Positions 2,406 through 23,617 of a stretch of DNA of 26,159 bases are shown piece after piece. Origin of the DNA: a virus; IMG/VR virus record IMGVR_UViG_3300031857_001195, positions 1 to 26,159 of that record, one strand, 5' to 3'. How positions within the stretch are numbered: the first letter of the stretch is position 1; every line of letters begins with the position of its first letter. The notes under the pieces are model-generated. The model did not search any database and was not told the origin of the DNA. It saw only the letters and a list, made by a program, of their open reading frames with translations. A program made the translations under genes and the position numbers.

Positions 2406-3989
2406 TTAAGCAGTCGTTCTACCCTCACCTTTTGGATTTCTGGCCTCCCCTGAAATATCAGGTGCATTGGCATCTCTTTCCTGGGTTCTTCTTCTACTAT
2501 TAGTAGCTTGGGCCATTTGTTCGGCTGCCTGTTGAGGTTTTAGCTGAATTACTGCATCTCCACCATCAATTGGGACCATGCCTTTTCTAATTCTAACCTC
2601 ATTTGGAGTAATAACCTGCATTCTTAAATATCTTTCATCTATCTTAGATTGCGTGTCTTCATCTGTCAGGGTTAGCTCATTAAATTTAAGAACTAACACG
2701 TCTGTCTTTTCGGCAATAATTCTATTTAATTTCTTTTCTAGAATATCCTGTGCTGGACGACATACCTGCTCTTTAAACATTTTATCTGCGTCTCTAGCAG
2801 AGGCAAGGCTGACTCCCTCTGGTACTCCAATTTTATTTATTGGAACTCTGTGTGAAAGCAAAATTTCATCACGGTTAGCTTTTCGATAAGTGTTAAATGA
2901 TGAGTCTTGAATATTTGCCTCTACTGGCTCCATATTAAATTCAACTTTAGAATCTGCAGAGTCTGCTGGTAGTGGAACATAAAGAGATCTATGATTCTTT
3001 CCTTTAAGTCCTACCTGGAAAAACTCAAGCAACTTTCTTTCTGATTCTGTAGAAAGCTTTGCACCCTTTACTGTAATAATATATCTTGGAACTGCCTTGT
3101 TTTCAAAGTAGTCAAGGTTATACTTGCCAGCGAACTCATTACCAGCCATAGCATTCTGTGACGCTACGATATCTGGAATACCGTAGTAGTTATCCATAGG
3201 TGTATATTTCTTTAATTGAATAATTTCATTTGGTCGGTCTTCTTGACCAGCAATTGGATTCTCTGTTTCCATATCGCCAAAGTTTCTAAAGAATACTGCC
3301 TTGCCGTAAAGTAGTTGTATGAATCCATCACGTAGTCTACGAACACGCATTGTCTTTGCTGGGATATGTCCAATATATCCAATGTTTCCGCTTGTTGTTC
3401 TACCTATTTCAATAAAGCCATTTCCTGTTGCTTCTAGGTCTGTGTATACCTTTACGAGAGTCTCAACAAATGTTTCTTCTTCGTTTACGTCTTCTAGCCA
3501 AAGATCTAGTTGCTGTCTAATTCTATCCATTTTTCTACGTGCACGATTTAGCTGTGTTTCATCTGCAATGTTATCTAAAGCTTCCATAGCTTTTTTACTC
3601 TCAACAAATGAATATCCTAAGCCAACAATATTTGCAACCTTAGCATTAATTGCAGCATAGTTGTATGGAGAGATTTCATAAATTTTTGATAGATACTCAA
3701 GGTTGTACATCGGTTGAACAAGGTCGAACATGGCGTAGCCAGTTACTGCTTGCTGTAATAGATTTTGTTGTGTTGCAGTTCCTTCTATACCGCTAAATCT
3801 TTTTTGAAATTCTCTTGAAACCTTACGACGAAATGTTGGGCTTAAACCATTAATCTTTTTTAAATCGTCTCCAGATACCTTAAATGGATCTGTCTCTATA
3901 ACAATGGATTTATCAAACGTAAACATGTCTGATGAATTAGAAATGGATACCTCGCTGCTAAATGTATCTTCTTCGTTAATATATTCCAT
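2406..3989 (-). CDS. Portal protein
   Basis: The product, 527 residues, forms the dodecameric ring at one head vertex through which DNA enters and leaves and to which the tail joins. It follows the HK97/PBSX portal layout: an N-terminal region with NLEYLSKIYEISPYNYAAINAK (about 96-117), a conserved VYTDLEATGNGFIEI (181-195), YTPMDNYYGIPDIVASQNAM (262-281), the NLDYFENKAVPRYIITVKG stretch (291-309), then HRVPINKIGVPEG and a C-terminal helical stem and crown region with LKFNELTLTDE and ITPNEVRIRKGM. The Gln/Asn-rich tail is probably disordered. The ATG at 3989 is preceded by ACGGAGGATTAAAATA, a good ribosome-binding site, and overlaps the TAA of the gene before it by one base, suggesting translational coupling. 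The length is usual for the family. Confidence 0.92.
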   Translation of the reverse strand: MEYINEEDTFSSEVSISNSSDMFTFDKSIVIETDPFKVSGDDLKKINGLSPTFRRKVSREFQKRFSGIEGTATQQNLLQQAVTGYAMFDLVQPMYNLEYLSKIYEISPYNYAAINAKVANIVGLGYSFVESKKAMEALDNIADETQLNRARRKMDRIRQQLDLWLEDVNEEETFVETLVKVYTDLEATGNGFIEIGRTTSGNIGYIGHIPAKTMRVRRLRDGFIQLLYGKAVFFRNFGDMETENPIAGQEDRPNEIIQLKKYTPMDNYYGIPDIVASQNAMAGNEFAGKYNLDYFENKAVPRYIITVKGAKLSTESERKLLEFFQVGLKGKNHRSLYVPLPADSADSKVEFNMEPVEANIQDSSFNTYRKANRDEILLSHRVPINKIGVPEGVSLASARDADKMFKEQVCRPAQDILEKKLNRIIAEKTDVLVLKFNELTLTDEDTQSKIDERYLRMQVITPNEVRIRKGMVPIDGGDAVIQLKPQQAAEQMAQATNSRRRTQERDANAPDISGEARNPKGEGRTTA

Positions 3990-4374: not shown

Positions 4375-4399
4375 ATTTTGTCATAGGTTGTGACAAAAT
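4375..4399 (-). repeat. Perfect 9-bp inverted repeat at the fibre/head module boundary
   Basis: ATTTTGTCA (4375-4383) and TGACAAAAT (4391-4399) are perfect inverted copies around a 7-base loop. The repeat begins at the stop codon of the LamG-like gene and lies just upstream of the putative head promoter. It could be a weak terminator, an RNA processing or stability hairpin, or a protein-binding site. No run of T follows it on the minus strand, so a classical intrinsic terminator is not supported. Confidence 0.65.
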
Positions 4400-6225
4400 T
4401 ATACGTTTTCGATAACTTTCCAGTCGTAGTTATAGTAGTTTACGGAGTTTTCTGTCACGGTCATTAACGAATTTTCAAGGGTCGTGGTAGCATTACCTAA
4501 ATATAAATTAAAATGTTCCAGAACCTGTGTCGCTGTTAATGAATAATCATATAGGGCTATATTCTGGTAAAGTGCCGAAATTGAGCCAGCGGTAGAGTAG
4601 TTCATCTTAATAACACCAGATATAGGCTCAACAAATGTGATAACCACATATTGGAGCTGATCTTTGGTAAATACATTATGGACATCTGTCTGTGTGCTCT
4701 TATCTACTCCATTGACATATATCTTATCTATATTGGTTTTGGATAGTGTTCCTGTAGGCCAAGAGAGATTTGTAGGTTCATCTGCTACCTCTACGATCCC
4801 GCCCCCATTTAAATCTGATGGTGTATAAAAGAACTCTAATGATTTAATTAGAGTATTTGTATTCACATGAAAACTTGCTCCAGATTGAACTGCTATTCCA
4901 TTTCTAGCATCTCTAGATAATATCTCATATTGTGAATTACTAAATCCTATACCGCCAGTATTTGGTGAAATAAATGATGATGAATTAGAAGCATTTAATG
5001 TTTGATCATTATAAAAACTCATTGATAAACTATATAGCTTAGGTAGATACTTACTGTTATTAGATGTTGTCATTGTTATTCTAATATATAAATCTCTTGA
5101 TGTATCAAATGATCCTAGGGAGTATTCTGGTATTGGTTGTCCATTTATACAAGGAGAGTATGTAATTCCATCTACGCTGGACTCTACTGATATCCCGTTG
5201 TCCCCGTCCCATTCTATTCTAGAGTTATCCATATCTGGACCACTTGGTATTACAATAAAATCTTCTAGCACTACAGTTTTTGATATTCCAGAGCCGTAGG
5301 CTATTCTAATGGCATCATTATTATTATCATAATATAAGTCATCATTTAAAAAATAACTCCATGGCTTGGTTGCTGGATATGAATATGAATATTTAGTAGA
5401 CAGGGCATCGTCATATATACTAAATAATTCTCCGCCATCTGGATAAACAACTTCTGTGCTATTAATTGTGGCTCCTAGATTATAATGGTCTTGAATATTT
5501 TCTAAGCCCAAAGAATACCTGTATGCTGCAACACAGTTAATTAGCATATAATCTGATGAGTTTGCTACTGGACCAGAAGACAAGTTTAATGAGCTATTTG
5601 TAAATGCAAAATTTGTAAGCGTTTTTTCTTCTTCAAGAATTCCGTCTATATAGAGGTATGCCTTAGATCCAGTATATGATGCAACAACATGAAAAGACTT
5701 TTTGATATATGGTATTGTCCATGATATAGACTCTGAGTTTAATTTAAAAACTATATTCTTGTTATCATAGAACAAACCAACAGAGTTTGTTGAATCTGCC
5801 AATATTGGAATTATAGATGTTGATGAAGTATTAAAATATACCCAGCACTCTAAAGTAAAGTCGTTATCCGATGAGTTTGAAGTTCCAAATCCTGGAGACA
5901 ATGTGTTATTTACATGGTCATTTAATACTGGATATAATATTGATGATGATCCAGTTAATTTACCAGACTGAGTAAATCCAGGGACTAATGGAATAATTCC
6001 ATCTGTATGTGTTCCGCTATATATAGCAGTATTGTTAGATCCAGATATATCTTCTGTTATGCTTCCGCCAGCTTCAGCATACGTATTAAATGAATTTAAA
6101 AAATCTGTATAATCAGTAAAATTATTTAAAACATCCTGATACGTAGTAAGTCCACTACCAGTAATGGATTCTATCGGCCAAAATCCAAGCGGGTAGTCTG
6201 ATAGGACTTTTAATCTATATGACAT
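4399..6225 (-). CDS. LamG/concanavalin-like structural protein (probable adhesin or minor tail protein)
   Basis: The product has 608 residues. The N-terminus, YRLKVLSDYPLGFWPI, and a following dISGSNN..Y..GT segment are typical of phage LamG-type proteins. Residues about 120-250 form a jelly-roll of the laminin-G/concanavalin type: NDFTLECWVYF, then HVVASYTGSKAYLYIDG and a closing YRYSLGLENIQDHYNLG. A middle beta-rich part follows, and residues about 420-590 repeat the theme (QYVVITF...ALYDYSLTATQVLEHFNLYLGN). Such domains bind carbohydrates in many proteins, so attachment to the host surface is likely, but no binding site can be proved here. The ATG at 6225 is preceded by GGGAGATAGATGTC, a good ribosome-binding site, and overlaps the previous gene by 11 bases. 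A 9-bp hairpin follows directly. Confidence 0.75.
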   Translation of the reverse strand: MSYRLKVLSDYPLGFWPIESITGSGLTTYQDVLNNFTDYTDFLNSFNTYAEAGGSITEDISGSNNTAIYSGTHTDGIIPLVPGFTQSGKLTGSSSILYPVLNDHVNNTLSPGFGTSNSSDNDFTLECWVYFNTSSTSIIPILADSTNSVGLFYDNKNIVFKLNSESISWTIPYIKKSFHVVASYTGSKAYLYIDGILEEEKTLTNFAFTNSSLNLSSGPVANSSDYMLINCVAAYRYSLGLENIQDHYNLGATINSTEVVYPDGGELFSIYDDALSTKYSYSYPATKPWSYFLNDDLYYDNNNDAIRIAYGSGISKTVVLEDFIVIPSGPDMDNSRIEWDGDNGISVESSVDGITYSPCINGQPIPEYSLGSFDTSRDLYIRITMTTSNNSKYLPKLYSLSMSFYNDQTLNASNSSSFISPNTGGIGFSNSQYEILSRDARNGIAVQSGASFHVNTNTLIKSLEFFYTPSDLNGGGIVEVADEPTNLSWPTGTLSKTNIDKIYVNGVDKSTQTDVHNVFTKDQLQYVVITFVEPISGVIKMNYSTAGSISALYQNIALYDYSLTATQVLEHFNLYLGNATTTLENSLMTVTENSVNYYNYDWKVIENV

Positions 6226-6439
6226 CTATCTCCCATGTATCTGTTGATTCAGTATATATATAAATAGTACCATCTCTATTTTCTCTAATTAGATTTAGTC
6301 CAGTATCTTGAACATCTACCCATCTAGCTCCAATTGTAGACTTAATCCATTGTATGTACTGATCATCAGATTCATTATCTAAAGAAACCTTAAATAATGT
6401 TATTTCTTCTTGTGGTCTTTCTATTAATATTTCATCCAT
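6215..6439 (-). CDS. Small acidic protein, function unknown
   Basis: This short gene encodes 74 residues (MDEILIERPQEEITLF...), acidic, with no membrane segment, signal peptide or known motif. The end is beta-like and aromatic (GTIYIYTESTDTWEIDV). Its ATG at 6439 shares one base with the stop of the glycine-rich gene before it, and its 3' end overlaps the LamG-like gene by 11 bases, so all three are probably translated together. A part in tail or fibre assembly is a guess from position only. Confidence 0.65.
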   Translation of the reverse strand: MDEILIERPQEEITLFKVSLDNESDDQYIQWIKSTIGARWVDVQDTGLNLIRENRDGTIYIYTESTDTWEIDVI

Positions 6440-8046
6440 TATGGTAGGTATCCAAACATGATTGTAACACCGCTTCCTCCGTTACTACTGCCACCTAATG
6501 GTGTAAGTATACAGCCTATATAAAACCCTTTATCTGCAGTTGATAAAAGATAATTTCTTCCATATGTCCATCCAGGAGTAGTATTTCCTGCGTTATCAGT
6601 AGAACCTATTTGAGGAAATGCTTGAACGTTGCTTCCAGCTGCATCTGATGCTCTAATATATTGATACAGCCATTGTGTAGATGTTGCACTCCATGTTCCT
6701 CTTGTTGCAAATATTGTGCTTCCTACAGAGAAGCTACCAGAATAACTTCCTCCTCCAGAATATACTGGAATTAAAGGAATTTGTGATGAAGATGCAGAAT
6801 ATGCTGGTGCAGATGAGCCATTAGCATTAACTCCTCTTACTGCTAATCTATAATATAAACCTTGATCTTTTGATCCATTTAATCCTTGTCTAAGACTTCC
6901 AGCAGCTGCTAAAGTTTTTGCTGGATAAGAAGTAAAATATTGCCATGGATTTTGTGCTGCAGAAGATGGGCTTATTGAATAATCAGCATATGTAGAAGAC
7001 CATGTTGTCCTATCTCCCCAATATGTATTATCATTAGAATATTGCCATTTATATTCAAATGATGTTGCATTGCTCCAAGAACCGTCTGAAGTTTTAGTTA
7101 ATGTTCCTCCTGCTGAAGCAGATCCTCCAATTGAAGGAATAGAATTATTTGTTGGTACAGCACCTGGTGTTGTTTTTACTATAGCATCTGGATGAGATCC
7201 AAGATATCTGACAATTACAATTCCTTTACCGCCATTACCACCAGCTCTATATGAATCTTGATTTTTTCCTGCTCCGCCTCCACCGCCACCAGTATTTGCA
7301 ATTCCGCTTCCGCCAGTATCTCCCCATGGAGCTGGACCACCACCTTGTCCACCACCACCTGAAACATTTATATAATCTGCTGAACCTCCTCCACCTGCAA
7401 AAAGTCCGCTTAAACCTTTACCAGAAGCAATGGCCCAATCTGTATAATTTACACCAGCACCTGCTTGTATTGAAGAAGCTGCTCCACCTTGACCACCACC
7501 ACCGCCAAGTCCTCCTGAATTTCCTTGTGTGCCTGAACCAGCAGGTGATCCTCCACCACCGTTACCTCCGCTAGATCCAGTAGAACCATCTGCTGATGCC
7601 GTATTGTAATATGATCCACCACCGCTAGATGCACCGCCACCGCCACCTCCTTGAGCTGCAGTTAAACTTCCAAATTGTGAAGGTGATCCATTTGGACCTC
7701 TAGTTCCAGTAGTTGTGTAAGATGCGGTTGCTCCATTTCCAACAGTTACTGTATATGTATTTGGAGACAATGTTGTTGTTGCTAATAAAGCTGCTCCTGC
7801 ACCACCGCCATATGTTGTGTAAAGAGTTGAGTGGTGTCCTCCACCTGCTCCTCCACCACCAACAGTTAAAACTTCTACCTGTTTTGATGATAACATTGTA
7901 AATGTTCCACTATTTAAAAATGTGTGATAAGTATATCCATTATAAGTTGCAATTGAGTCTCCTCCGCTTGCAATTGGAGAAGCTTTACCAATTCCAAATC
8001 CGAAGCCTCTTGAAGACCCTGAACTCCTAGATGATATTATTGGCAT
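6439..8046 (-). CDS. Glycine-rich tail-fibre tip adhesin with C-terminal beta domains
   Basis: The product is 535 residues. After a Ser/Arg/Gly-rich start, residues about 33-285 form a glycine-rich domain: an opening YHTFLNSGTFTM strand, EVLTVGGGGAGGG, many GGGGG runs, and the usual closing GGNGGKGIVIVRYLG. Such domains fold as polyglycine-II-like sandwiches in phage tip adhesins (T4-like S16 gp38 is the known example), where the loops between glycine runs contact the receptor. The C-terminal half (about 290-535) is Ser/Thr/Trp-rich and beta-like, with FEYKWQYSNDNTYW and YYRLAVRGVNANGSS segments resembling Ig/fibronectin-like repeats. An AGGATTAATT ribosome-binding site precedes the ATG at 8046. 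It sits between the collagen-like fibre and the LamG-like protein. Confidence 0.78.
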   Translation of the reverse strand: MPIISSRSSGSSRGFGFGIGKASPIASGGDSIATYNGYTYHTFLNSGTFTMLSSKQVEVLTVGGGGAGGGHHSTLYTTYGGGAGAALLATTTLSPNTYTVTVGNGATASYTTTGTRGPNGSPSQFGSLTAAQGGGGGGASSGGGSYYNTASADGSTGSSGGNGGGGSPAGSGTQGNSGGLGGGGGQGGAASSIQAGAGVNYTDWAIASGKGLSGLFAGGGGSADYINVSGGGGQGGGPAPWGDTGGSGIANTGGGGGGAGKNQDSYRAGGNGGKGIVIVRYLGSHPDAIVKTTPGAVPTNNSIPSIGGSASAGGTLTKTSDGSWSNATSFEYKWQYSNDNTYWGDRTTWSSTYADYSISPSSAAQNPWQYFTSYPAKTLAAAGSLRQGLNGSKDQGLYYRLAVRGVNANGSSAPAYSASSSQIPLIPVYSGGGSYSGSFSVGSTIFATRGTWSATSTQWLYQYIRASDAAGSNVQAFPQIGSTDNAGNTTPGWTYGRNYLLSTADKGFYIGCILTPLGGSSNGGSGVTIMFGYLP

Positions 8047-8054
8047 AATTAATC

Positions 8055-9179
8055 CTACGCAAACTTAGTTTGTGATCCAAGAACCAAGTACGCTGGTGAA
8101 GCTGAAGTTTTAACTACTGTAAATGTATATAAATCTACAGAACTTGTGTTTCCACCCGTTGGTGCAGTTCCTCCCTGCCACTTAGGTGTTACTGCAGATC
8201 CGTCTACTTGAATTACTGATGGATAATATGCTGTAGCACCACTTGTGTTCATCCAAACAAATGTGATTGATTCTCCTACGCTTAACTTAGAAGACAATGA
8301 TGTTGATGAATTATATCTAAAATTTAATGTATGGTTAGCTGTTGCATCAGAAGTATAATAATAAATTGTTGATGTTTCTGCATCCATATTTATTGTTCCA
8401 GTTGCTGCTGAGGCAACAATATTTGCAGTTTCTGTTCCAGATAAGAATGTTGGATAACTTAATGTTTTATCTACAAGTGTCTGTGCTCCAAGTAGTGTTA
8501 CTTCGCCTGCTGGACCAGTTGGTCCTGTTGGTCCTACTGGACCAGTTGGTCCTGTTGGTCCTGCAACTGTTGAGTTTGCACCTGATGGACCAGTTGGGCC
8601 TTCTGCACCTACTGGACCTGATGGACCTGATGGGCCCGCTGGGCCTTGTGGTCCTGATGGACCTGTTGCACCTGCTGGACCAGTTGGACCTGTATCACCT
8701 GTTGGTCCAGGAACTACTGAGTCTGTACCAGAAGGACCTTGTGGTCCTGTTGGACCTGTTGGCCCTGTTGCACCAGTAGGTCCTTGAATACTTCCAACGT
8801 TTTCCCATGAAGATGATGTTGCAGACCAAACATATAATGATCCACCAATTAAATAACCGTCTCCAGGATTTCCTGTTGGATGTGCTGTTTGAAGTTCGCC
8901 TAATGAATTATACGTTCCAAGGATTGTTACCGCCGTTCCCTGTGGTCCTGATGGACCTGTTGCACCAGTTGCGCCTACTGGACCTTGTGGCCCTGAAGGG
9001 CCTGTTGCACCTGCTGGACCTGTTGCGCCTGTAGGACCTGTTGGTCCAGTAGGTCCTGTTGGTCCAGGATGGGCAGTTAAATATGCGTCTACGTCTTCAG
9101 CTAAATACTCCAGGTCTCTAGGGACATCTGGTGTATCTGTATATTCTGGGTAATGAAAACCCTTACCTGTAGTTGCCAT
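8055..9179 (-). CDS. Collagen-like tail fibre protein
   Basis: The 374-residue product has a short N-terminal attachment segment ([20 protein letters not shown]...) and then four blocks of Gly-X-Y triplets rich in Pro and Thr at about 39-81, 133-151, 158-200 and 207-225. The first two blocks are split by a globular insert (about 82-132) with [20 protein letters not shown], related to the KTYVWDGxxW modules of neighbouring fibres. The triplet tracts should form a trimeric collagen-type triple helix. The C-terminal 145 residues are a beta-rich tip ([19 protein letters not shown]..., [18 protein letters not shown]) common in marine phage fibres. No Shine-Dalgarno is visible before the ATG at 9179; a TGGTACAAT sits 6 bases upstream. 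The preceding gene is a glycosyltransferase. Confidence 0.85.
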
Positions 9180-9203: not shown

Positions 9204-10262
9204 TTATAATCTTGTGTACCACCCGTCATCCCATAGGGTTAAAAGACCTTTAAAATACTTATCATACTTATATTTGATTACATCGACTGAGTATGTAGCC
9301 ATTGCACGATCATGTATTATTTGAGGATTTAATTTCTTAACATCTTCTGCCGCTTTGCAAAATTCATCAAGGGTTCTACACCTGTATCCAGTTATGCCAT
9401 TCGGATTTGTTTCTACAAATGCTCCCCAGTCTGTTGTTATTGTTGGTGTACCGCAAAAATGTGCCTCTGGAACAATGTTTCCAAATGGCTCTATATAAGT
9501 TGTCGGGGCAATAACTGCAATTGCATTACTCATTAATTCTGCTCTTTTATCTGAATCTACTGGGCCAATATACTCACCATACTCTGGAATATAATCTCCA
9601 GGACCCGCCATAATTAATTTAGCACCAATTTCTTTGCACATTTGAGATGCAATATCTACACCTTTACGTTCTATCATTCTTCCAATGTAAAGATAGTAAT
9701 CTTTTTTATTTGGCTGGAACGGAAACATTTCTGGCTCAAAGTATCCTGGTATTACTGTATCGTAAAATAGACCATCTACTTTTGTTGGGTCTTTATGTGA
9801 AGCATAAGAAGCATGCATCCAAGAGTATGATTCCCAAACTCTATATTTAGCAAATGTGGATCCATACCCTATTCCAAATTCTACTGACATATGTTGTGGA
9901 AATGCATCTGCTATTGGCTTGTGTGAAGTTCCGCCAATTAAACATATAAAGTCTTTTTGTTGAAGACGTGGGCTTAATTCTTTTATTACGTTATTTAAAA
10001 ATTTATCCCAGAAAGGTTGAGTAATATCAAAAGATGCAGATGTAAAATGTTTACCATTTAATCCATAAAGTCTTTCTTGCTCTGATATACATGTAATTAA
10101 TTCATCGCATGGAGCTTCGTTTTGTTCTCCAGCATATAGATAAACTTCATGCCCTAAGTCTTTCATCATAAGGCAAAAGCGCCTTACTTTTTCAGTAAAG
10201 GCGCAATTGACATACTCTTTAGTCGTTTGAGTATGTGGAAGACTAACCACATGAAAACGCAT
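9204..10262 (-). CDS. Glycosyltransferase, GT-B fold, family 4 type
   Basis: This 352-residue enzyme should move a sugar from a nucleotide-sugar donor to an acceptor. The N-terminal acceptor half has MRFHVVSLPHT and the usual LGHEVYLYAGE strand (36-46). The C-terminal donor half starts YYLYIGRMIERKG (189-201; Arg195 and Lys200 match the phosphate-binding residues of the family), continues KLIMAGPGD, and carries the EX7E motif Glu258...Glu266 in EPFGNIVPEAHFCGTP. No membrane segment or signal is seen, so it acts in the host cytoplasm. It lies 3 bases after the 84-residue gene and 24 bases before the collagen-like fibre. Likely targets are a phage fibre (Thr/Ser-rich collagen tracts) or a host envelope polymer; DNA-base glycosylation is less likely from this location. 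All key residues are present. Confidence 0.85.
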   Translation of the reverse strand: MRFHVVSLPHTQTTKEYVNCAFTEKVRRFCLMMKDLGHEVYLYAGEQNEAPCDELITCISEQERLYGLNGKHFTSASFDITQPFWDKFLNNVIKELSPRLQQKDFICLIGGTSHKPIADAFPQHMSVEFGIGYGSTFAKYRVWESYSWMHASYASHKDPTKVDGLFYDTVIPGYFEPEMFPFQPNKKDYYLYIGRMIERKGVDIASQMCKEIGAKLIMAGPGDYIPEYGEYIGPVDSDKRAELMSNAIAVIAPTTYIEPFGNIVPEAHFCGTPTITTDWGAFVETNPNGITGYRCRTLDEFCKAAEDVKKLNPQIIHDRAMATYSVDVIKYKYDKYFKGLLTLWDDGWYTRL

Positions 10263-10265
10263 TAA

Positions 10266-10520
10266 CTATTCTTGAGGTTCTTCTGCTGTGTTCTGAGGTT
10301 GTTGTGATCTTGCAAGAAGTGCTAGTACTGCTTCTGCTGATTCAGCATTTGAGATAGAGTTATAAATTTCTCCAGCAGCAACCTTGATGTCTAGGCGTGT
10401 AGCTTTTCTAGAAGCCACTACTTCATCTGTTAATGAATCTAGCAGTCTATATGTTCCGTCTAAGTTTTTTACAACTACAAATGCAATTTCCGCATTTGGA
10501 GTCTTTGTATCTTCTGTCAT
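10266..10520 (-). CDS. Small acidic phage protein, function unknown
   Basis: The product has 84 residues with an AEIAFVVVKNLDGTYRLL strand segment (about 9-27), a RKATRLDIKVAAGEIYNSI helix, and a Gln/Glu-rich disordered tail. I recall similar small proteins with AFVVxKxxDG motifs from actinophages, but their role is not known to me. The ATG at 10520 has a good ribosome-binding site, AAAGGAGAAAAA. It follows the membrane protein gene by 10 bases and precedes the glycosyltransferase by 3, so it is probably co-expressed with both. Confidence 0.7.
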   Translation of the reverse strand: MTEDTKTPNAEIAFVVVKNLDGTYRLLDSLTDEVVASRKATRLDIKVAAGEIYNSISNAESAEAVLALLARSQQPQNTAEEPQE

Positions 10521-10530
10521 TTTTTCTCCT

Positions 10531-10815
10531 TTATATAAAGTGTTTAATAATTGCGGCTGAGGCTAGTATGCTCCATCCGATATTAAAATAAATAATTGTA
10601 GGTAATGTTTTTACAGTTGATGTAAAAACAAGGGTTAGGCTGGAGACTAATGCAAATATGTATAGCCACCAAAACTGTACTCCAAAAAGGAGTCCAGGAA
10701 ATATTATAGCAAGTTTTGTAGAAAAAGCCCAGAACTCTATAGCATTTACTTTATTCCAATATTCTTTTTTACCAAGCTTTTTAGTAACTAGGATTATCTC
10801 TTTAGGCTTTATCAC
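10531..10815 (-). CDS. Small membrane protein with about three transmembrane segments
   Basis: The 94-residue product has a basic, soluble N-terminus (about 1-25, many Lys) and hydrophobic stretches at about 30-47, 48-66 and 71-90. The Lys-rich N-terminus favours a cytoplasmic location for that end. It starts with GTG at 10815, inside the last 14 bases of the halogenase gene, with no clear ribosome-binding site, so it is likely coupled to halogenase translation. A membrane protein between a halogenase and a glycosyltransferase could tether or supply one of them (for example, move a lipid-linked sugar), but it is too short for a standard flippase and I do not recognise the family. Confidence 0.7.
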   Translation of the reverse strand: MIKPKEIILVTKKLGKKEYWNKVNAIEFWAFSTKLAIIFPGLLFGVQFWWLYIFALVSSLTLVFTSTVKTLPTIIYFNIGWSILASAAIIKHFI

Positions 10816-12397
10816 TGTGACGATTTTCTTTTAACCATTGATACATAGTTGGAGAAGCGTCTGCTTCATCTTGCCAATCTTTTCTCATTTTTTTCCAGTT
10901 TTCAAAAGCTAGCTGAGTTGCTTTATAGTAGTCAACCCCTTCGACATGCTCCCAGCCCATAATTGTCATTTTATCTACTGGAAAATAATTCATTCCTGTT
11001 GCAATACAATTCATGCCAGCATTAGGCTCGTATCTATTTAAATTAATTTTTCTTGCAGCTAAATCTGTAAATGTCATTGGGGTTAAAGGATTTTCATCCT
11101 TCATTGGTAAATTGAATGATCTTTTAGCTATGTCTTGCCAATATTTTGTATTAGTTCTATTTGATAGTGCATAATGCATAGCAACAAAATCTTTAAATTC
11201 TAGATACACCATTCTAGATGCTATATTAAAAGCATCCTTATCCCATTGATTTGCAGTTCCCCTGTTTAATGATTTCATTAATTTTATTAAAAATTTATGT
11301 ACTGTAAACAATCCATTTGATTCTAAAGGTTCAATAAAACCTGCTGATAATCCAATTGCAACTACATTTTTAACCCAAATTCTATTATGAATTCCAATTC
11401 TAAATTTAATGTCTTTATATTCATATGAATCTACATCTCTACTTGGATCATGAATTTTCATTTTATCTGACTTTAAATAATTTTTAAATTCTACTAATGC
11501 ATTTTCTGGAGAAACATATTTATCACTATAAACATATCCAGTTCCAATTCTTTCCCAAGAAGGTATATTCCAAACCCAGCCATTTTCAATTGCTGTACAA
11601 TTTGTAAAAGGTTCCATTTCATTTTCAATATCTGTATATGGAATTCTAGTTGCCCAAGCACGGTTATTTGGAAGCTGATGAGAATAATCATCAAATGGTT
11701 CTTTTAGTGCGTCTCCAAGAAGTATGCTTTTCCATCCAGTACAATCAATAAAAAGATCTGCCGATATAGACTCACCATTACTTAAAATTAAACTTTCAAT
11801 ACCGTCTTCATTTAATTTAACTTCATTAACTGTTAATGGTAATACTTTTACCCCTCTTGGAATACAGTAATTGTCTCTAAGCCATATTCCAAATTTGGTA
11901 GCGTCAAAGTGATATGCAACGTCTTTTTTAAAATTAAAATTATATAGTTTTCCAGATTCATTCCATGACAACTTGTTTTGCTCTGCTAATGTAAGTGCTG
12001 GGAAAAATGTTCTTGCATAATCTGCTACATCTAAATCTGGATATAGTGCTTTTTTAACATACCAGTCATTTAATCCATTATATGTTCCTTCAAGGAATGG
12101 GTCTCCGAATGGGTAATGAAAACTTCCAGAATCTTCTTTATAAAAATCAGTAAATTTAATACTCATTTTATAAACAGCGTCTGTGGCTGGCATAAAGTCT
12201 TTTTCATCTAGACCTATATAGTTTGCCCATTCTGTAATACTTCCAAGTGTGGATTCTCCTACTCCAACTATAGGGTAGTCTGGGGATTCAATTACTATAA
12301 TTTCTTTATCTGGAAATGTCTTTATAAATGTGGCTGCTGACATCCATCCAGCTGAACCTCCGCCAACGATTACAACCTTATTTATATTTAAATTCAT
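10802..12397 (-). CDS. Flavin-dependent halogenase (tryptophan halogenase family)
   Basis: The product has 531 residues, the usual family length. It uses reduced FAD and oxygen to make a hypohalous acid that is guided to a lysine. The FAD-binding GxGxxG is Gly12, Gly14, Gly17 in VGGGSAGWM; GVGESTLGSI (45-54) follows. The catalytic lysine is most likely Lys77 in AVYKMSIKF, matching PrnA Lys79. The family hallmark WxWxIP is WVWNIP at 274-279. Glu359 in SAGFIEPLESNG matches the catalytic Glu346 of PrnA. So the active site looks complete. Cyanophage Syn10 encodes a halogenase (VirX1) shown to iodinate many substrates, so phage halogenases are real enzymes. No flavin reductase is visible here; the host must supply it. 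It is preceded by a promoter-like sequence and followed by a membrane protein gene that overlaps it by 14 bases. The substrate cannot be told. Confidence 0.9.
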   Translation of the reverse strand: MNLNINKVVIVGGGSAGWMSAATFIKTFPDKEIIVIESPDYPIVGVGESTLGSITEWANYIGLDEKDFMPATDAVYKMSIKFTDFYKEDSGSFHYPFGDPFLEGTYNGLNDWYVKKALYPDLDVADYARTFFPALTLAEQNKLSWNESGKLYNFNFKKDVAYHFDATKFGIWLRDNYCIPRGVKVLPLTVNEVKLNEDGIESLILSNGESISADLFIDCTGWKSILLGDALKEPFDDYSHQLPNNRAWATRIPYTDIENEMEPFTNCTAIENGWVWNIPSWERIGTGYVYSDKYVSPENALVEFKNYLKSDKMKIHDPSRDVDSYEYKDIKFRIGIHNRIWVKNVVAIGLSAGFIEPLESNGLFTVHKFLIKLMKSLNRGTANQWDKDAFNIASRMVYLEFKDFVAMHYALSNRTNTKYWQDIAKRSFNLPMKDENPLTPMTFTDLAARKINLNRYEPNAGMNCIATGMNYFPVDKMTIMGWEHVEGVDYYKATQLAFENWKKMRKDWQDEADASPTMYQWLKENRHSDKA

Positions 12398-12440: not shown

Positions 12441-12455
12441 ATAATACCATATTAT
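12441..12455. repeat. Perfect 6-bp inverted repeat over the -10 region (operator-like)
   Basis: ATAATA-CCA-TATTAT is a perfect inverted repeat of 15 bases that includes the whole -10 hexamer of the putative halogenase promoter. A further 12-base palindrome TATATTAATATA (12432-12443) overlaps it. Such symmetry over a -10 could be a repressor site. In AT-rich DNA short palindromes also occur by chance. Confidence 0.4.
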
Positions 12456-12469
12456 GTTAAAGTTTACAA
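12441..12469 (-). promoter_or_regulatory. Putative promoter upstream of the halogenase cassette
   Basis: On the minus strand TTGTAA (12469-12464) and TATTAT (12446-12441) are exactly 17 bases apart, with TGG directly before the -10 hexamer. It lies in the largest gap of the window (75 bases) and would start transcription of halogenase, membrane protein, small protein and glycosyltransferase. A second TATAAT lies nearer to the ATG without a convincing -35. Confidence 0.55.
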
Positions 12470-12472
12470 TAG

Positions 12473-12850
12473 CTAGTCAGCGTAATCTTCAGGAAGAATA
12501 TTTGCAGTAAATTGACTAATTACGGGATCTTTATCTTTAGTTTCAATTTTATTTAAAGCATCTTCTTGTTCTTTTTGAATTAAAACAATTAGGTCGTAGT
12601 CTTCTTCTTTTCCAATTGTTGGAATATATGTCTGCTCATATCCAAGTAGGTTTATACGAGTTCCCCATTGAGTGTCATGATCTACTTCTACCCATTTTAA
12701 ATCTGGGTGATATCTTCCAGTAGGATCAATTGTAGTAAATTCAACTATTGTGTTGTCTTCGTCTAAACGAGCCCATTTCTTTTTTTTCATTCTTTTAAGA
12801 GTTAAGGCATCTTCTTTAGACCAATGCTCTTTCATTGTTTTTATTTTCAT
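12473..12850 (-). CDS. Small structural-type protein with KWAR...DPTG motif
   Basis: The product has 125 residues: a Lys/Glu-rich N-terminal helix (about 1-24), then KKWARLDEDNTIVEFTTIDP (about 24-43), TGRYHPDLKWVEV, and an acidic helical tail. The middle part is clearly related to the 74-residue protein encoded just before it. Short proteins with this W-A-x...DPxGxFHPxxxW pattern occur in fibre regions of aquatic phages; I know no proven function. The ATG at 12850 lies 7 bases after the previous stop. It is the last gene before the halogenase promoter, so it probably ends the upstream fibre operon. Confidence 0.7.
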   Translation of the reverse strand: MKIKTMKEHWSKEDALTLKRMKKKKWARLDEDNTIVEFTTIDPTGRYHPDLKWVEVDHDTQWGTRINLLGYEQTYIPTIGKEEDYDLIVLIQKEQEDALNKIETKDKDPVISQFTANILPEDYAD

Positions 12851-13083: not shown

Positions 13084-14379
13084 TTACCACTCCACCGCTA
13101 CGAAGCCAGGTCCACCCTGTCCAGATTGTGTTGAGGTCCAGCTTAGTGTTCCACCAGCTCCACCTCCACCGCCACCAGCGAGTGAGTCTCCACCGACAGA
13201 TTGTTGGTTAACAGCGCCTCCGCCGCCTCCCATAAATCCACCAGCTCCACCGTTACCAGTATTAGATGAAGAGTTTTTAACTGCTCCACCTCCACCGCCA
13301 CCAGCGGCTCCACGTCCACCAGGTGCACCTCTTGTACCCCAGTATGATGTTGCTGCACCCATACCACCGCTTCCAACTACACAAAATAATCTTGGCGCTA
13401 CGAATGCATCTGGTGTCATAAGAACATTTAATGGAGAAATACCTTGTGGTGTAAATCTATAAGCATTGTCAGTGTTTAAGTTTACTCCATAATATACTCC
13501 CATTGCATATGGCTCTAGTGGACCATGATGGCCAGCTAAGCCATGTTGATTTTCTGAAAATCCAGAATGGTAATTATTTGTATCGAGTCCTGTATTTCTT
13601 GGTGCCATGTATCCTGCACCACCAAAACCTGACTGTGTTCCATGGTTGTTTGAAGAAGTATAAATAGATTCACCCATTTCCCAGGATCCTCCACCTCCAC
13701 CGCCACCCATATCGTAGTTAGTTGTAGTTGAACCCCACTGGTTATGCCATGCTCCACCTCCACGGCCTCCAATACCTCCACCGCCACCAGCACCTTGAGT
13801 ATAAGAATTTCCACCAGTTACTAAGCCACCTGTACCACCTTGGCCACGCCAAGATCCAGCTGAACCTCCACCTCCACCGCCACCTGAATACCATGTGTTA
13901 GCAGTATTATTTGATGTTTGTCCGTGTCCACCGCCACCACCAGAAGAGTTAACTAATGTTCCACCTGAACCATTACCCCATTGGTTCATTGCTTTACCAG
14001 AACCGTTTGCATGTCCTCCACCGCCACCACCAGTTGCTGAACAGAATGCTCCAAATGATGATGTTCCACCATTTCCACCGTATGTACCATATGATGTTGA
14101 TCTAGATCCTGCTGCACCTACTGTTACTGTAATTGCTTGACCTGGAGTAACTGTATACTCTCCCATAGCAAATCCGCCACCTGAACCACCGTCTCCACCG
14201 TGTCCTTGGTTTTGACTAGCACACATTCCACCTCCGCCGCCACCACCGAAAACGGTAGCACGTACTTTTGTTACGTTGGCAGGAACTGTAAATGTAAATG
14301 TTCCTGGTGTTGGATACTCAACAAAGTTTTTATACTTTCGAATATCTGGGTTTGATTGTAATGTACTTAGATTTGCCAT
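13084..14379 (-). CDS. Glycine-rich tail-fibre tip adhesin
   Basis: The product has 431 residues. A short N-terminus (MANLSTLQSNPDIRKYKNF) leads to the signature opening EYPTPGTFTFTVPANVTKVR (17-36) and VFGGGGGGG, then long glycine runs to about residue 260. A less glycine-rich insert (about 260-345; GHHGPLEPYAMGVYYGVN and LMTPDAFVAPRLFCVVGSGG) interrupts the domain, and a second glycine-rich block with GGAVNQQSVGGDSLAGGGGG runs to the end, closing GGPGFVAVEW. This is the polyglycine-sandwich design of receptor-binding tips. The His, Asn, Trp and Tyr residues between glycine runs are the probable receptor contacts. It begins one base after the stop of the 1384-residue fibre, with GGAG 11 bases before the ATG, and may cap that fibre. 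Confidence 0.8.
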   Translation of the reverse strand: MANLSTLQSNPDIRKYKNFVEYPTPGTFTFTVPANVTKVRATVFGGGGGGGMCASQNQGHGGDGGSGGGFAMGEYTVTPGQAITVTVGAAGSRSTSYGTYGGNGGTSSFGAFCSATGGGGGGHANGSGKAMNQWGNGSGGTLVNSSGGGGGHGQTSNNTANTWYSGGGGGGGSAGSWRGQGGTGGLVTGGNSYTQGAGGGGGIGGRGGGAWHNQWGSTTTNYDMGGGGGGGSWEMGESIYTSSNNHGTQSGFGGAGYMAPRNTGLDTNNYHSGFSENQHGLAGHHGPLEPYAMGVYYGVNLNTDNAYRFTPQGISPLNVLMTPDAFVAPRLFCVVGSGGMGAATSYWGTRGAPGGRGAAGGGGGGAVKNSSSNTGNGGAGGFMGGGGGAVNQQSVGGDSLAGGGGGGAGGTLSWTSTQSGQGGPGFVAVEW

Positions 14380-14380
14380 T

Positions 14381-17300
14381 TTAGATTAGTCTCCATCCGA
14401 GGGCAGCATTTGAATACTCTAATGTAATAGATGCTCCTCCTCTATCAATAATTAAGTTTTCAGCGTATCCTTGGATATTATGTCCATTTCTTGCAATTGT
14501 GATATTAAACTCTCCAGCTTTATTTGTACCATCTGTGATTTTAATTCTATCACCAATTAATACATCTGTTGGAAGTGTTAATGTAACAGCTGCTGTATGG
14601 TTTACTATATAGTTACCATTATTGTGAACATATCCTTCTGTTATATTTCCAAATCTCTTAGCAACGATGTTTCCTGATGCTGTGATAATTGAAGGAGTTA
14701 AATTGATTGTTGAATAGTCAACAGCATGAGATTGATCCCATGGGTCTTTATCAAGAATTACATTTCGTGCTTCAAGAGTATCTACGTTTAGATCTTCTCT
14801 AGTAAAGGTTGTTCCTGGAACTGAGAAGTCAATTGTATCTGAAGGCTTATTTGCAATTCCTCCGAGCAAGTACCACTTCTGGTTTCCTTGGTTACGAGCA
14901 AGACCTGTGTACTGTCCACGTAGTGGGTTAGTTACAGATGATGCACCTAGGTAGCTAAGAAGCTTGTATGATCCATAGCTTGGATAAGTTGCTGTTGCTG
15001 TACCACCAGTTTCAGCTGTTTCAATAACATCTGACAAAGCTTGTGAATATGAAATTGTATTTGCAGTTACTCCCGTAATTGTGTAAGTACCATTAAATGT
15101 ACTTGATACGTTAGCTACAACAATTGATTGGCCTGGTACAAATGCGTGGTTTGCGCTTGTTGTAAGCGTAGATACACCAGATGTACGGTTTCTGCTAATA
15201 ATATTTGCCACTACTGTTGTAGTAAGAGTTGTTGAAGCAATATCGTCAAGTGCTCTTGCAAATGATATTGAGAACGGAGCTGATGTATTACGTGCTGTAA
15301 TTGTTCTTGTTCCGTTTAGAGCAGATGTTACTCCTGCAATAAGTACTGAGCCACCTACTTCTACTTGTGGTGTATCATTAAGAACTAATGTTACAACACC
15401 ATTTGTAAGAGAGTAGCTTACTACTGTTGGGTATGTACGGCTAGGTGCAATTACTGACTCATCAGGAATTGATCTTGCGTATCTAAATTGTGTGCTATTT
15501 GGAACTTCAGTAATTGTATAGCTACCGTTGTAAACGTTTGGAAGAGAAACTCTTTGTACCAAACCTGATACTGGAGAAGGTGCTACGTTTGAAGTTGAAG
15601 AAACTGTATATGTAATTGTAGTTGATGTTACATCTGTGATTGTGTAAGTTCCATTTACGGCTGATGCCACTCCAGTTACAGTAATTGATTGTCCAGACAA
15701 TAGTCCGTGTGCTGTAGATGTTGTAATTTTAGCAGTTGTAGATCCTGTAACTTCATAAACAATAACTACTGATAGTGATGCTAGATCGTCTACACCTGTA
15801 ACTACTACTGTGTCATTTACTTCGTAATTATGTGCTGCTGTTGTTACTATTGTAGCTACGTTATTTGATGCTGAACGGAAGCTTACTGCATTTGATAATA
15901 CTAATGTGCGTTGTGAGCGAGATTCTCCAAGGAAGGCGAATGTTAATCCGTCTCCTGTTGGGTTTCCGCTTGCAACGAATACCATTGGGTTAACAACTGC
16001 AAGGTTTTCAGTTTCAACAACTGTTCCTGAACCACCGAATGTAATTTCACCAGCGATATTAACTGCACCTGCTACGTTGATATCTCCTTGAACTCCAAGA
16101 CCACCAACAAGTGTCAGTGCTCCTGTTGTAGGAGAAACGGAAGGTGTTGCAATTTCAATATGAATGTTTTGATTTGGAGTAATGGTCATCTGATCATTAC
16201 CAGTAAACAGACCACCAGCAGCAAAGATAATCTTATTATCTGTACCAGTGTTATCTGTTGCAAGAACTAAGTTACCTGTTCCTGTTGTTCCTTCTGGAGC
16301 GGACATAAAGATATATCCATCGTGAGGACCTGTTACGCCGAATGAAGGGTCATTGAAGTTTGCTCCAGTGATACCCATATCAATCCAACCAGATATGTTA
16401 TCTCCTTCTGCAGCGTATGCAATATAATCTGCTGAAGTTGATGTTCCTGATCCTAAGTTAACTAATGCGTTTTGTACGAATGAACTAGATGTTCCAGCTG
16501 CAATAATAACTGCGTCTGAAAGTTCTGCTGATGTTTCGTATGCTGTAGCGCCAGCACCTACTGGAAGTTTTGTAACTCCTTGTAAGTCCACGTTACCAAT
16601 AACTGTCAAGTCACCAGCAATATATTGATCGCCAGTGATACCAACACCACCGACAACTGTTAGAGCACCTGTTGTGGCGCTTGTTGAGGCTGTTGCAATT
16701 TCAATGTGTACGTTTTGATCTGGAGTAATAGACATTTGTTCATTACCTGAAGCAAATCCTCCAGCTGCTAGAATAATCTTGTTTGCTGCACCACCATCAC
16801 CTGTTGCAAGAACAAGGTTTCCATCTCCAAAGTACATTGTTGCTGTACCTGTTGCAGAGGTTGATGCTACATCTGCTGCTGTCTTAGCAAAACTAAATTC
16901 TGTTGCTGCAACGTTAGTGATAATATGAGTTCCATTGAATGGAGCTCCAACACCTTCAATTTTTACCTTTTTACCATTTGTAAAATTATGTGCAGCATTT
17001 GTTGTAATTGTTGCAACATCGTCTGCTAGTTGTATTCCTGTAATTGTTGCAGTAAGTGGCTCAAATCCTTGAGCAAATACATATCCATCTCCAGGACCTG
17101 TAATTCCAAATTGTGAAGCTGTAAAGTTTTTACCTGTAAATCCAAGATCTGCCCAACCAAATTCATTTGTTGAGTCTCCTGTGTATGCGATAAAGTCAGC
17201 AGATTGTGCTGATCCATCTCCTGTTGATGTGTCAAGGTTGTTAATAACAACTGCTTGAGCAAAATCTTCCGTGTCCCATGCTGCTGCTGTAGCAACATCT

Positions 17301-18535
17301 GATAGTGCTGCAGGACCTTCAATAAAGGTACGTGCTCCATCACCAAAGTATAGGTTGGTTACATCTCTTTCAAATGATGCTTCTGCGCCGTCTGTAGTAA
17401 GTACATATCCAGCTTTACCGCCTTGTCCTGGTAGAAGACCAGTTGCGCCTTTTGCTAGAATATCCCAATTCTCTTCATCATCAATTAAGAATTCTGAAGA
17501 TGTATGATCGACAGTAGCAATACGTGCATTTTCACCGTCATTTACAACGTCACCTTCGATGTAGAATGTATTTTCTTGCCATTCTCCACGATAACGAATT
17601 CCTGAGTTATACTTTTCCCAATAAGTGTCTTTGTCTGTAGCAAAGGCTGAGGAAGATGAGTGGAAGGCATCTGTAATATATGTATTACCACCCCATTGAA
17701 CAATGTCTCCGCCAAGATACTCTGTTGATGCTGCCCATTCACCCTTATATGTTGTACCAGATGTTAAAATATCCCAGTATACTGTATCTGTTGGTGTGTT
17801 TCCAAGTGTGTCACCCTTTGCGATATAAACTGTTGAACCATAAGTTACAATGTCGTTAATGTGATATTGTTCTGTTGAACTATATACTCCCATTGCACGA
17901 AGTCCATCGATATAAGGTGCCCAATCTGATGAATTTGTAGAAGGAATTTTGTTTGTGTTATTTGTTAAAGATAAATAAATTCTTGCGCCATATGCTGCTA
18001 ATTGATTTGGCTTATATGCTGTAGATGAATTCCATACACCAGTTGCATCAACACCAGATACGAATGTATCCCAGTATGATGGGGAAGTTGCAGGATTATG
18101 ATTTGTTGTATCTTGCTTAGCAATAAATACATCTGGTCCATATGTTACTACGTCATTCTTTTGATAGTTAGCTGTTGAAGACCATGCTCCTTCATACTGA
18201 ATACCGTCTGCAAATTGTGACCAGTATGTTGCATTTGGTGGAACTTGATTTGAACCTGTTTTAATAGAAATATAAACTTTACCACCGTATGCGATTCCAT
18301 CGCCAACACGGTATTCTGTTGTGCTGTCCCATACACCAGTAAACTTAAGACCTTCAATCATTAATGCCCAATAGTTTGTATTGGTTGGCAAGTATCCTTG
18401 TGATGCTAGAGCGTATGTGTATACATATACGTTACCGCCGTACTTGACAACATCGTTTAGTTCGTATGTTGTTGCATCGCTCCATGTTCCTGCGAAAAAG
18501 AATCTGATCTTACCTAGGTCGATTAGTTGTGTCAT
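14381..18535 (-). CDS. Large modular tail fibre with seven carbohydrate-binding-like repeats
   Basis: This is the largest gene (1384 residues). Residues 13-363 hold seven tandem repeats of about 50 residues, each with W..ST.Y...D.V.YGG..Y......P....YW....G, resembling the carbohydrate-binding module 5/12 pattern. Next come two long related units (about 395-660 and 660-815) with SADYIAY, GWIDMGITGANFNDPSFG and GALTLVGG. Repeats with AH....G..V.I.GV...NGTYTIT.V interrupt the first unit once and fill about 850-1190. The C-terminus (about 1300-1384) has LPTDVLIGDRIKITDG, ITIARNGHNIQG and LEYSNAALGWRLI, a beta-rich tip known from marine phage fibres. The ATG at 18535 shares a base with the previous stop; GGAGATACACTA is the ribosome-binding site. 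The role is host attachment, probably to surface sugars. The exact ligand is unknown. Confidence 0.82.
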   Translation of the reverse strand: MTQLIDLGKIRFFFAGTWSDATTYELNDVVKYGGNVYVYTYALASQGYLPTNTNYWALMIEGLKFTGVWDSTTEYRVGDGIAYGGKVYISIKTGSNQVPPNATYWSQFADGIQYEGAWSSTANYQKNDVVTYGPDVFIAKQDTTNHNPATSPSYWDTFVSGVDATGVWNSSTAYKPNQLAAYGARIYLSLTNNTNKIPSTNSSDWAPYIDGLRAMGVYSSTEQYHINDIVTYGSTVYIAKGDTLGNTPTDTVYWDILTSGTTYKGEWAASTEYLGGDIVQWGGNTYITDAFHSSSSAFATDKDTYWEKYNSGIRYRGEWQENTFYIEGDVVNDGENARIATVDHTSSEFLIDDEENWDILAKGATGLLPGQGGKAGYVLTTDGAEASFERDVTNLYFGDGARTFIEGPAALSDVATAAAWDTEDFAQAVVINNLDTSTGDGSAQSADFIAYTGDSTNEFGWADLGFTGKNFTASQFGITGPGDGYVFAQGFEPLTATITGIQLADDVATITTNAAHNFTNGKKVKIEGVGAPFNGTHIITNVAATEFSFAKTAADVASTSATGTATMYFGDGNLVLATGDGGAANKIILAAGGFASGNEQMSITPDQNVHIEIATASTSATTGALTVVGGVGITGDQYIAGDLTVIGNVDLQGVTKLPVGAGATAYETSAELSDAVIIAAGTSSSFVQNALVNLGSGTSTSADYIAYAAEGDNISGWIDMGITGANFNDPSFGVTGPHDGYIFMSAPEGTTGTGNLVLATDNTGTDNKIIFAAGGLFTGNDQMTITPNQNIHIEIATPSVSPTTGALTLVGGLGVQGDINVAGAVNIAGEITFGGSGTVVETENLAVVNPMVFVASGNPTGDGLTFAFLGESRSQRTLVLSNAVSFRSASNNVATIVTTAAHNYEVNDTVVVTGVDDLASLSVVIVYEVTGSTTAKITTSTAHGLLSGQSITVTGVASAVNGTYTITDVTSTTITYTVSSTSNVAPSPVSGLVQRVSLPNVYNGSYTITEVPNSTQFRYARSIPDESVIAPSRTYPTVVSYSLTNGVVTLVLNDTPQVEVGGSVLIAGVTSALNGTRTITARNTSAPFSISFARALDDIASTTLTTTVVANIISRNRTSGVSTLTTSANHAFVPGQSIVVANVSSTFNGTYTITGVTANTISYSQALSDVIETAETGGTATATYPSYGSYKLLSYLGASSVTNPLRGQYTGLARNQGNQKWYLLGGIANKPSDTIDFSVPGTTFTREDLNVDTLEARNVILDKDPWDQSHAVDYSTINLTPSIITASGNIVAKRFGNITEGYVHNNGNYIVNHTAAVTLTLPTDVLIGDRIKITDGTNKAGEFNITIARNGHNIQGYAENLIIDRGGASITLEYSNAALGWRLI

Positions 18536-22470: not shown

Positions 22471-22848
22471 TTAGTAGTATTCTACTACTTGCCACCTACA
22501 CGCACCAGTAGTGGTAAGTGTGGTTGAATTTGTTAAATATGCACCATATTCTGCAGAATATAATGATGTTGATCCTCCAGATAAACTTCTTGTTCCGCTG
22601 TATGTAGGCCAAGATCCTCCGCTGTTAGATCCGTTTCCTTGTGAAGCGCAAGATCCTCCTGATGGGGTAAGTGTTCCAGATTCAGAGCTATTGGTTGCTA
22701 CTGTTCCAGCAGCGCCAGTTGAAAATGAAATTACAAAAGATTTACTTAAATCAACTGATGATATTGTTACAGATCCAGCTGACACTACTGATCCTCTTTG
22801 GGTAGACTTAATCATTTGTAAGGTTTCAGGATATTGTTTAATTGCCAT
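22471..22848 (-). CDS. Tandem paralogue 4 (IKS.QRG small structural protein)
   Basis: This 125-residue protein (MAIKQYPETLQMIKSTQRGS) is the fourth copy in the array. The start at 22848 is chosen because it aligns with the other copies and shares a base with the previous stop (TAATG); a start at 22872 would add eight non-conserved residues. It shares VSAGSVTISSVDLSKSFVIS, a Ser/Gly/Pro variable middle (here with Cys: GGSCASQGNGSNSGG) and the ending NSTTLTTTGACRWQVVEY. It is the most divergent copy. Confidence 0.75.
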   Translation of the reverse strand: MAIKQYPETLQMIKSTQRGSVVSAGSVTISSVDLSKSFVISFSTGAAGTVATNSSESGTLTPSGGSCASQGNGSNSGGSWPTYSGTRSLSGGSTSLYSAEYGAYLTNSTTLTTTGACRWQVVEYY

Positions 22849-23234
22849 TATGAATATTCCACCACTTCCCATCTACATGCTCCAGTTGTAGTTATTGTAG
22901 TTGAATTAACTATGTATGCGCCATATTCTGAAACTGTAATAGATGTAGCACCAGCTCCATTTGATCTTGTTCCAGCATAATTTGGAAAACTTCCACCACC
23001 TGAAGATGCATTACCACCACCTGTTCCGCCAAAATTATATGACCCAGTAGGACTTAATGTTCCTGATTCAGAACCAGCAACTCCAACGCTTCCTGCTGAT
23101 CCAGTAGAATATGATCTAACAAATGACTTAGATGTGTCTATAGAAGATATGGTTATATTTCCAGCAGAAGCCGTTGAACCTCTTTGAATGGATTTAATTG
23201 GTGATAATGTTTGTGGGAATATTGTAGATGCCAT
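22848..23234 (-). CDS. Tandem paralogue 3 (IKS.QRG small structural protein)
   Basis: The 128-residue protein begins MASTIFPQTLSPIKSIQRGS and has ASAGNITISSIDTSKSFVRS, a glycine-rich variable middle (SYNFGGTGGGNASSGGGSFP), NYAGTRS, and the shared end NSTTITTTGACRWEVVEYS. Its ATG shares one base with the stop of copy 2 and its TAA shares one with the start of copy 4. The family looks like a small trimeric or repetitive virion surface protein; the function is unknown. Confidence 0.77.
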   Translation of the reverse strand: MASTIFPQTLSPIKSIQRGSTASAGNITISSIDTSKSFVRSYSTGSAGSVGVAGSESGTLSPTGSYNFGGTGGGNASSGGGSFPNYAGTRSNGAGATSITVSEYGAYIVNSTTITTTGACRWEVVEYS

Positions 23235-23617
23235 TAGTTATACTCAATAGCCTCCCATCTACATGCTCCATCAACAACTAGTGTTGTTGAGTTTAATAGA
23301 TATGCTCCATATCTTGCAGAAGTTAATGATGTTGCTCCAGCAGACAATGACCGTGTTCCAGAATAAGTGGGAGCTGATCCTCCGCCTGAAATAAATCCAC
23401 CGCCACCTGATGCAAATATGTTACCTCCAGATGGATTGTATGTTCCAGACGTATTACCAGTTCCAGCAACTGTTCCTGCGGAACCTGTAGAAAAAGATCT
23501 AACAAATGTTTTAGAAGTATTTACAGAAGAGATTGTTAAGTTTCCAGCTGATGCAGCAGATCCTCTTTGTATTGATTTAATTGGTGAAGAACTAATTGGA
23601 TATATTCTAGAGCCCAT
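23234..23617 (-). CDS. Tandem paralogue 2 (IKS.QRG small structural protein)
   Basis: This is a 127-residue protein from the ATG at 23617 (MGSRIYPISSSPIKSIQRGS), the start that aligns with its paralogues and overlaps the previous stop by one base. An upstream alternative at 23647 would add ten residues and overlap copy 1 by 31 bases. The variable middle is GGNIFASGGGGFISGGGSAP. The end, NSTTLVVDGACRWEAIEYN, departs from the TTTGACRWEVVEY of the other copies. Confidence 0.76.
   Translation of the reverse strand: MGSRIYPISSSPIKSIQRGSAASAGNLTISSVNTSKTFVRSFSTGSAGTVAGTGNTSGTYNPSGGNIFASGGGGFISGGGSAPTYSGTRSLSAGATSLTSARYGAYLLNSTTLVVDGACRWEAIEYN

Follow-up and report, generated by a model that had tools for sequence, protein, structure and literature searches.

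A flavin-dependent halogenase in an exchangeable slot among fibre genes of a probable actinophage

Phage halogenases as such are already known. The prnA genes of cyanophages appear in the literature from 2010 at the latest, with antibiotic or secondary-metabolite ideas attached to them (PMC2984593, PMC3037559, PMC7824862), and a halogenase is also on record from an actinophage of a lake (PMC10611076). Of the viral halogenases one, VirX1, has been characterised; it prefers iodide and has an open active site (PMC8407142, PMC7948982), and in the literature searched no native substrate is given for it. A proposal of fibre halogenation or modification was not found in that literature either, subscription papers being outside its scope. 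What is new here is a variant with an unexpected, exchangeable context. A first, sequence-only reading of the same DNA had set the gene beside VirX1 as the lone well-studied phage halogenase, and VirX1 is indeed a relative, but the gene is not a lone curiosity: halogenases are common in phages, with 65 named phage records and at least 373 IMG/VR stretches. The known halogenases of the PF04820 family act on free, carrier-bound, or peptide substrates, and to our knowledge none of them acts on a virion protein.

The window, i.e. the whole stretch of DNA analysed here, is a virus record of 26,159 bases and a fragment of a genome. Its halogenase ORF is complete and uninterrupted (Table 1). The protein matches the PF04820 profile with 332.6 bits (cut-off 21; profile positions 1-404 of 458) and phrog_2928, "tryptophan halogenase", with 490 bits, and its best PDB sequence match is VirX1 (6qgm, E 1.2e-104) across residues 4-525. 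The sequence-only reading had described a full-length gene with a catalytic set of GxGxxG (12-17), Lys77, WVWNIP (274-279), and Glu359; the ORF is intact and a script located GGGSAG and the other three elements at exactly these positions. Across an alignment of 40 sequences there is no variation at G12, G13, G14, G17, K77, W274, and E356-P357, and 33 of the 33 close (N-type) members keep E359 as well as Lys77. The structure prediction that the same reading had suggested besides a VirX1 alignment gave an AlphaFold (AF2) model with a pLDDT of 92.1, which Foldseek superimposes on VirX1 with a TM of 0.90 (rmsd 2.5) and on AbeH with a TM of 0.83. The dN/dS of the halogenase is 0.043 between the window and contig L003 (92% identical), the lowest among 13 genes compared, and 0.04-0.1 at dS 0.4-1.7 in the pairs compared, a sign of strong purifying selection. 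The gene is thus confirmed as a complete member of the PF04820 flavin-dependent halogenase family. Because of the profile scores, the VirX1 match, the invariant residues, the model fold, and the dN/dS, the protein appears to have been kept functional, and it is very probably an active halogenase on some substrate.

Table 1. Features of the window around the halogenase gene
Feature	Coordinates	Strand	Remarks
Portal protein	2406..3989	-	anchor for comparing related phages
LamG / concanavalin-like adhesin	4399..6225	-	Tyr 7.2%
Gly-rich fibre-like protein (Gly_rich_2)	6439..8046	-	
Collagen-like fibre protein	8055..9179	-	
Glycosyltransferase (phrog_3408)	9204..10262	-	
84-aa protein	10266..10520	-	between TM94 and glycosyltransferase
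TM94	10531..10815	-	94 aa, small hydrophobic, probably membrane; start overlaps halogenase 3' end
Flavin-dependent halogenase	10802..12397	-	531 aa, N361 clade, sister to VirX1 clade
Possible promoter TTGTAA-17-TATTAT	12441..12469	-	9/12; in 75-base gap upstream of halogenase
125-aa protein	12473..12850	-	directly upstream of halogenase
Gly-rich tail-fibre-type protein	13084..14379	-	upstream of halogenase
1384-aa tail fibre	14381..18535	-	CBM_5_12 match; GxWxxxTxYxxxDxVxYGGxxY repeats in W/Y-rich residues 1-420

In a tree of 102 sequences, made by a quick method with SH-aLRT support only, the window halogenase belongs to a clade of 42 rows sharing Asn361 (E-S-N-G). This clade represents one change on the tree (SH-aLRT 94), a fixed substitution adjoining the catalytic Glu, and position 361 is Thr in VirX1 (E-S-T-G) and nearly all bacterial members. 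The sister of the N361 clade is the group of VirX1, S-CREM1, S-RIM44b, S-WAM1/S-SZBM1, and S-MbCM6. N-type and VirX1-type enzymes together form a branch of 48 rows apart from the other cellular FDHs (SH-aLRT 100), which is nearly all phage but also includes the MAG contigs L296 (bacterial chromosome) and L297 (phage-like). VirX1 of Syn10 (PDB 6QGM) has the same K, E, GxGxxG, and WVWNIP and aligns over the full length including the C-terminal part; it likewise lies downstream of fibre-type genes, and DUF6065 and 2OG enzymes follow it. However, VirX1 is only about 38% identical to the window enzyme, and Asn361 in place of Thr together with the placement in the sister clade rules out orthology. 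Syn10 and S-RIM44 each encode one N-type and one VirX1-type halogenase in tandem. Their second enzymes, like those of Sf-CH11 and S-B64, belong to the Asn361 clade, but they come from phages of cyanobacteria, and the S-B64 gene is found among replication genes; we know of no characterisation of these four N-type enzymes. PrnA, RebH, PyrH, Thal, and AbeH have the same PF04820 fold and catalytic residues but show E-S-T-G in the alignments and belong to metabolic gene clusters. In PrnA-type enzymes the halide is, as we take it, held by the backbone of the equivalent Thr-Gly, and N361-G362 would presumably be that site here. The substitution is therefore at the likely halide site, where it could alter the activity and in particular change the choice of halide. 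An N-type halogenase with 55% identity is present on L296, a Deltaproteobacteria MAG chromosome with no phage genes around; it is nested within the N-type enzymes, nearly all of which are from phages, and transfer from phage is possible. Two window-like phages encode, next to their N-type halogenase, a further and only distantly related paralogue (L028:12266-13831 and L041:12239-13834). The Actinomycetia phage DSL-LC01 (PMC10611076) is, similarly, a lake phage with a predicted Actinomycetia host and a glycosyltransferase adjoining its halogenase (L376:32221-33792), but this enzyme is 23% identical, belongs to another clade, and has EPLD where the catalytic-Glu motif EPLE is expected, so that it may be inactive or altered.

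The halogenase is surrounded by structural genes. On the minus strand it is preceded by fibre-type genes, the 1384-aa tail fibre, the Gly-rich fibre, and two small ORFs, and followed by TM94, the 84-aa ORF, the glycosyltransferase, the collagen-like, Gly-rich, and LamG proteins, the portal, a protease, and the major capsid protein. The adhesin genes that the sequence-only reading had named as flanks are therefore all there, and its remark that the neighbouring fibres are rich in Trp and Tyr stands in part: there are 15 Trp and 33 Tyr in residues 1-420 of the 1384-aa fibre versus 5 and 30 in the other 964, and Tyr is high in LamG and one Gly-rich protein, whereas the other window fibres look ordinary in an informal comparison of composition. 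A search for co-occurrence of the W/Y-repeat fibre with the halogenase was dropped, the simple repeat pattern being found in few loci. Further along the fibre cluster (22471-23997) four related genes in tandem encode proteins about 126 aa long that share QRGS..SAG..TIS. From its family name and fold the enzyme might be expected to be an auxiliary metabolic one, halogenating free tryptophan, indole, or another small metabolite to yield a signal or an antibiotic. VirX1 accepts many small heteroaromatics (PMC8407142), and antibiotic protection has been suggested for cyanophage prnA (PMC2984593). However, biosynthetic genes are absent from the window, the neighbours being structural, and the alignments do not point to a Trp-type lid, as the window enzyme is matched by most bacterial Trp halogenases only to about residue 426 (421-432), by PrnA to 479, and by VirX1 to 525. 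We therefore regard a metabolic role as improbable.

The position of the halogenase was compared in 42 portal-anchored relatives (portal 76-100% identical) with enough upstream sequence. Between the fibre genes and LamG/portal, six of the 42 have halogenase and TM94, and by tblastn both genes occur in exactly the same six of 80 portal loci, which include near-identical contigs and do not represent six independent events. Contig L133, with 96% identity in the portal and 95% in the glycosyltransferase, has neither gene and carries a reverse-oriented DUF6065 relative in the slot. In many other portal relatives (L153-L205) the slot upstream of LamG/portal is filled by an array of about 6-11 proteins, each 150-280 aa long, and sampled array members match 2OG-FeII_Oxy, DUF6065, or short-chain dehydrogenase. 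The halogenase locus is thus an exchangeable slot. In relatives with a different (L139) or no (L133) halogenase the adjacent fibres are more different, while portal and glycosyltransferase stay alike. Such covariation of fibres and halogenase fits block exchange, but linkage alone could also produce it; fibre islands are recombination hot spots, and the co-location may reflect nothing but linkage, which speaks against a functional tie to the fibres. Given how variable the slot is among close relatives, the halogenase could even be a passenger in a recombination hot spot that has lost its activity or its link to the fibres. It is hard to reconcile this with the low dN/dS and with a DUF6065 partner common to actinophage-type and cyanophage lineages, and of all explanations we find it the least credible. 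Some of the 2OG-array proteins (L035:3283-3900, L022:12884-13450) carry the PHROG names "ferrochelatase" and "DNA endonuclease V" (phrog_2954, phrog_3531, phrog_274), which are possibly misnomers.

The comparison names two halogenase partners, TM94 and DUF6065. TM94 was called in 69 loci (the window and L210-L289), in 59 of which the halogenase is among the listed neighbours, frequently in the order halogenase, DUF6065, TM94; a search for TM94 in 50,697 named phage records was negative. As a small hydrophobic family found mostly near a halogenase, TM94 deserves a separate family description. The gene immediately after VirX1 in Syn10 encodes a DUF6065 homologue, as do the genes immediately after the VirX1 counterparts of S-RIM44 and S-CREM1 (HMM E 1e-21 to 1e-25), and others are located beside halogenases at L139:2704-3402 and L082:9577-10365. 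The predicted DUF6065 fold matches dUTPase/dCTP-deaminase-like structures at an E of about 1e-4 and a TMq of 0.4, and we did not adopt such a role because this match is too weak. TM94 might bring the enzyme to the membrane, where its target would be an aromatic compound of the host surface, either free or linked to lipid or glycan; halogenating this compound would result in superinfection exclusion or an altered envelope. Besides the closeness of TM94 to the halogenase, the glycosyltransferase in the same gene run, the L048-type contigs with nucleotide-sugar genes next to their halogenase, and a jumbo-cyanophage halogenase proposed to belong to a capsule/secondary-metabolite cluster (PMC7824862) would agree with a surface compound. 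However, most N361-clade relatives are located in structural fibre modules and not in sugar clusters, and we consider this explanation unlikely, if worth keeping in mind. A membrane-like partner would also suit an enzyme whose role is to give off hypohalous acid close to the envelope and not to modify a single substrate; halogenases are known to leak HOX (Thal, PMC7948982), and the fixed change adjoins the catalytic Glu. Yet Lys77 and Glu359, which are needed for directed halogenation, are kept in all 33 N-type members of the alignment, and release of HOX as the actual function is very improbable.

The fibre context extends beyond the close relatives of the window. After dereplication there were 36 N-type contigs; within five genes, a fibre-type gene is present in 25 of them, and 2OG, DUF6065, or TM94 in 30. 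These are descriptive counts because the fibre-type gene families were partly defined from the same loci. All 25 contigs with a fibre-type gene also have a partner enzyme. Neither was found within five genes in the remaining six of the 36 (L019, L046, L048, L060, L064, L079), some of which have the halogenase among replication or nucleotide-sugar genes. Thus, the setting in a fibre module is common to many relatives and comes with 2OG-oxygenase-like, DUF6065, and TM94 partners that the sequence-only reading had not mentioned, but it does not apply to several lineages. Among the eight named cyanophages of the VirX1/N-type branch examined, six (Syn10, Sf-CH11, S-CREM1, S-WAM1, S-SZBM1, and S-RIM44) have genes for fibres, structural proteins, or fibre assembly just upstream of the halogenase, with 2OG oxygenases near; the S-B64 halogenase adjoins SbcC, and that of S-MbCM6 is among metabolic genes. 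The window glycosyltransferase is homologous to one of Synechococcus phage S-CAM7 that is near tail-fibre and 2OG-oxygenase genes. More distant phage halogenases (S-SSM7, Syn1, P-SSM2, HTVC008M, S-H38) have varied gene contexts. Fibre adjacency is reported without a p-value. Seeding the fibre detection with the window fibres alone was too insensitive, as fibres diverge fast, and seeding it with the cyanophage fibres beside halogenases was circular; both were dropped.

The portal and capsid proteins of the window are about 60% identical to those of large Streptomyces siphophages, and WhiB, a protein of actinobacteria and actinobacterial phages, is encoded on the halogenase-carrying contig L139 (portal 91% identical) and on two further contigs with a halogenase, G006 and G008. 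The presence of WhiB in a relative such as L139, together with the Streptomyces-siphophage-like portal and capsid, points to an actinobacterium, probably a freshwater one, as host. The flavin reductase PF01613, whose absence had been claimed from the window (itself a fragment), was detected in none of 25 halogenase phage records, seven of them whole cyanophage genomes. Most likely, therefore, the host supplies the FADH2 or the electrons.

The best explanation, to be taken as tentative, is that the halogenase is part of an exchangeable fibre-modification cassette acting on the surrounding fibres. Fibre modification is the leading, although unproven, function among the readings considered. Catalysis, halide, substrate, and benefit to the phage are what we infer, the substrate because fibres are the common neighbour and because residues 1-420 of the 1384-aa fibre are rich in Trp and Tyr. 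That a component of the fibre module is the substrate seems to us plausible at somewhat less than an even chance; the target may be a fibre residue, a surface compound, or a metabolite, and the gene context favours the fibre module. With FADH2 from the host, the enzyme would form a C4a-hydroperoxyflavin and oxidise the halide to HOX, and K77 and E359 would direct the halogen onto an electron-rich aromatic group within an open site like that of VirX1. The cassette would comprise TM94, the glycosyltransferase, and the halogenase, whose place is taken in other phages by enzymes of the DUF6065 and 2OG-Fe(II)-oxygenase types, and would modify the fibres encoded around it, most plausibly at Trp or Tyr side chains, for example in the W/Y-rich N-terminal region of the 1384-aa fibre as a candidate substrate. 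Halogenation would change adsorption or protect the fibre. It is a more doubtful generalisation that aquatic phages of unrelated hosts use interchangeable cassettes to modify their own receptor-binding fibres post-translationally, the N361 clade being a protein-directed halogenase that leaves halotryptophan or halotyrosine on virions. Fibre modification makes a testable prediction for the whole group of phage halogenases, namely that halogen be sought on the fibres. Halogenated fibres, should they exist, would give phages a new means of diversifying adsorption, and an enzyme that halogenates proteins would be of practical use.

Concerning the gap upstream of the halogenase, the promoter-like TTGTAA-17-TATTAT of the window was not above chance in a scan. 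TTGACA is found in the same gap of L006 and L008-L011; in these relatives as well as in L015 and L058 the TTGACA just upstream of the halogenase precedes a strong hairpin, whose sequence varies, and a T-rich tail. The window and L003 have a weaker version of this arrangement. This element may be a promoter with a terminator or operator.
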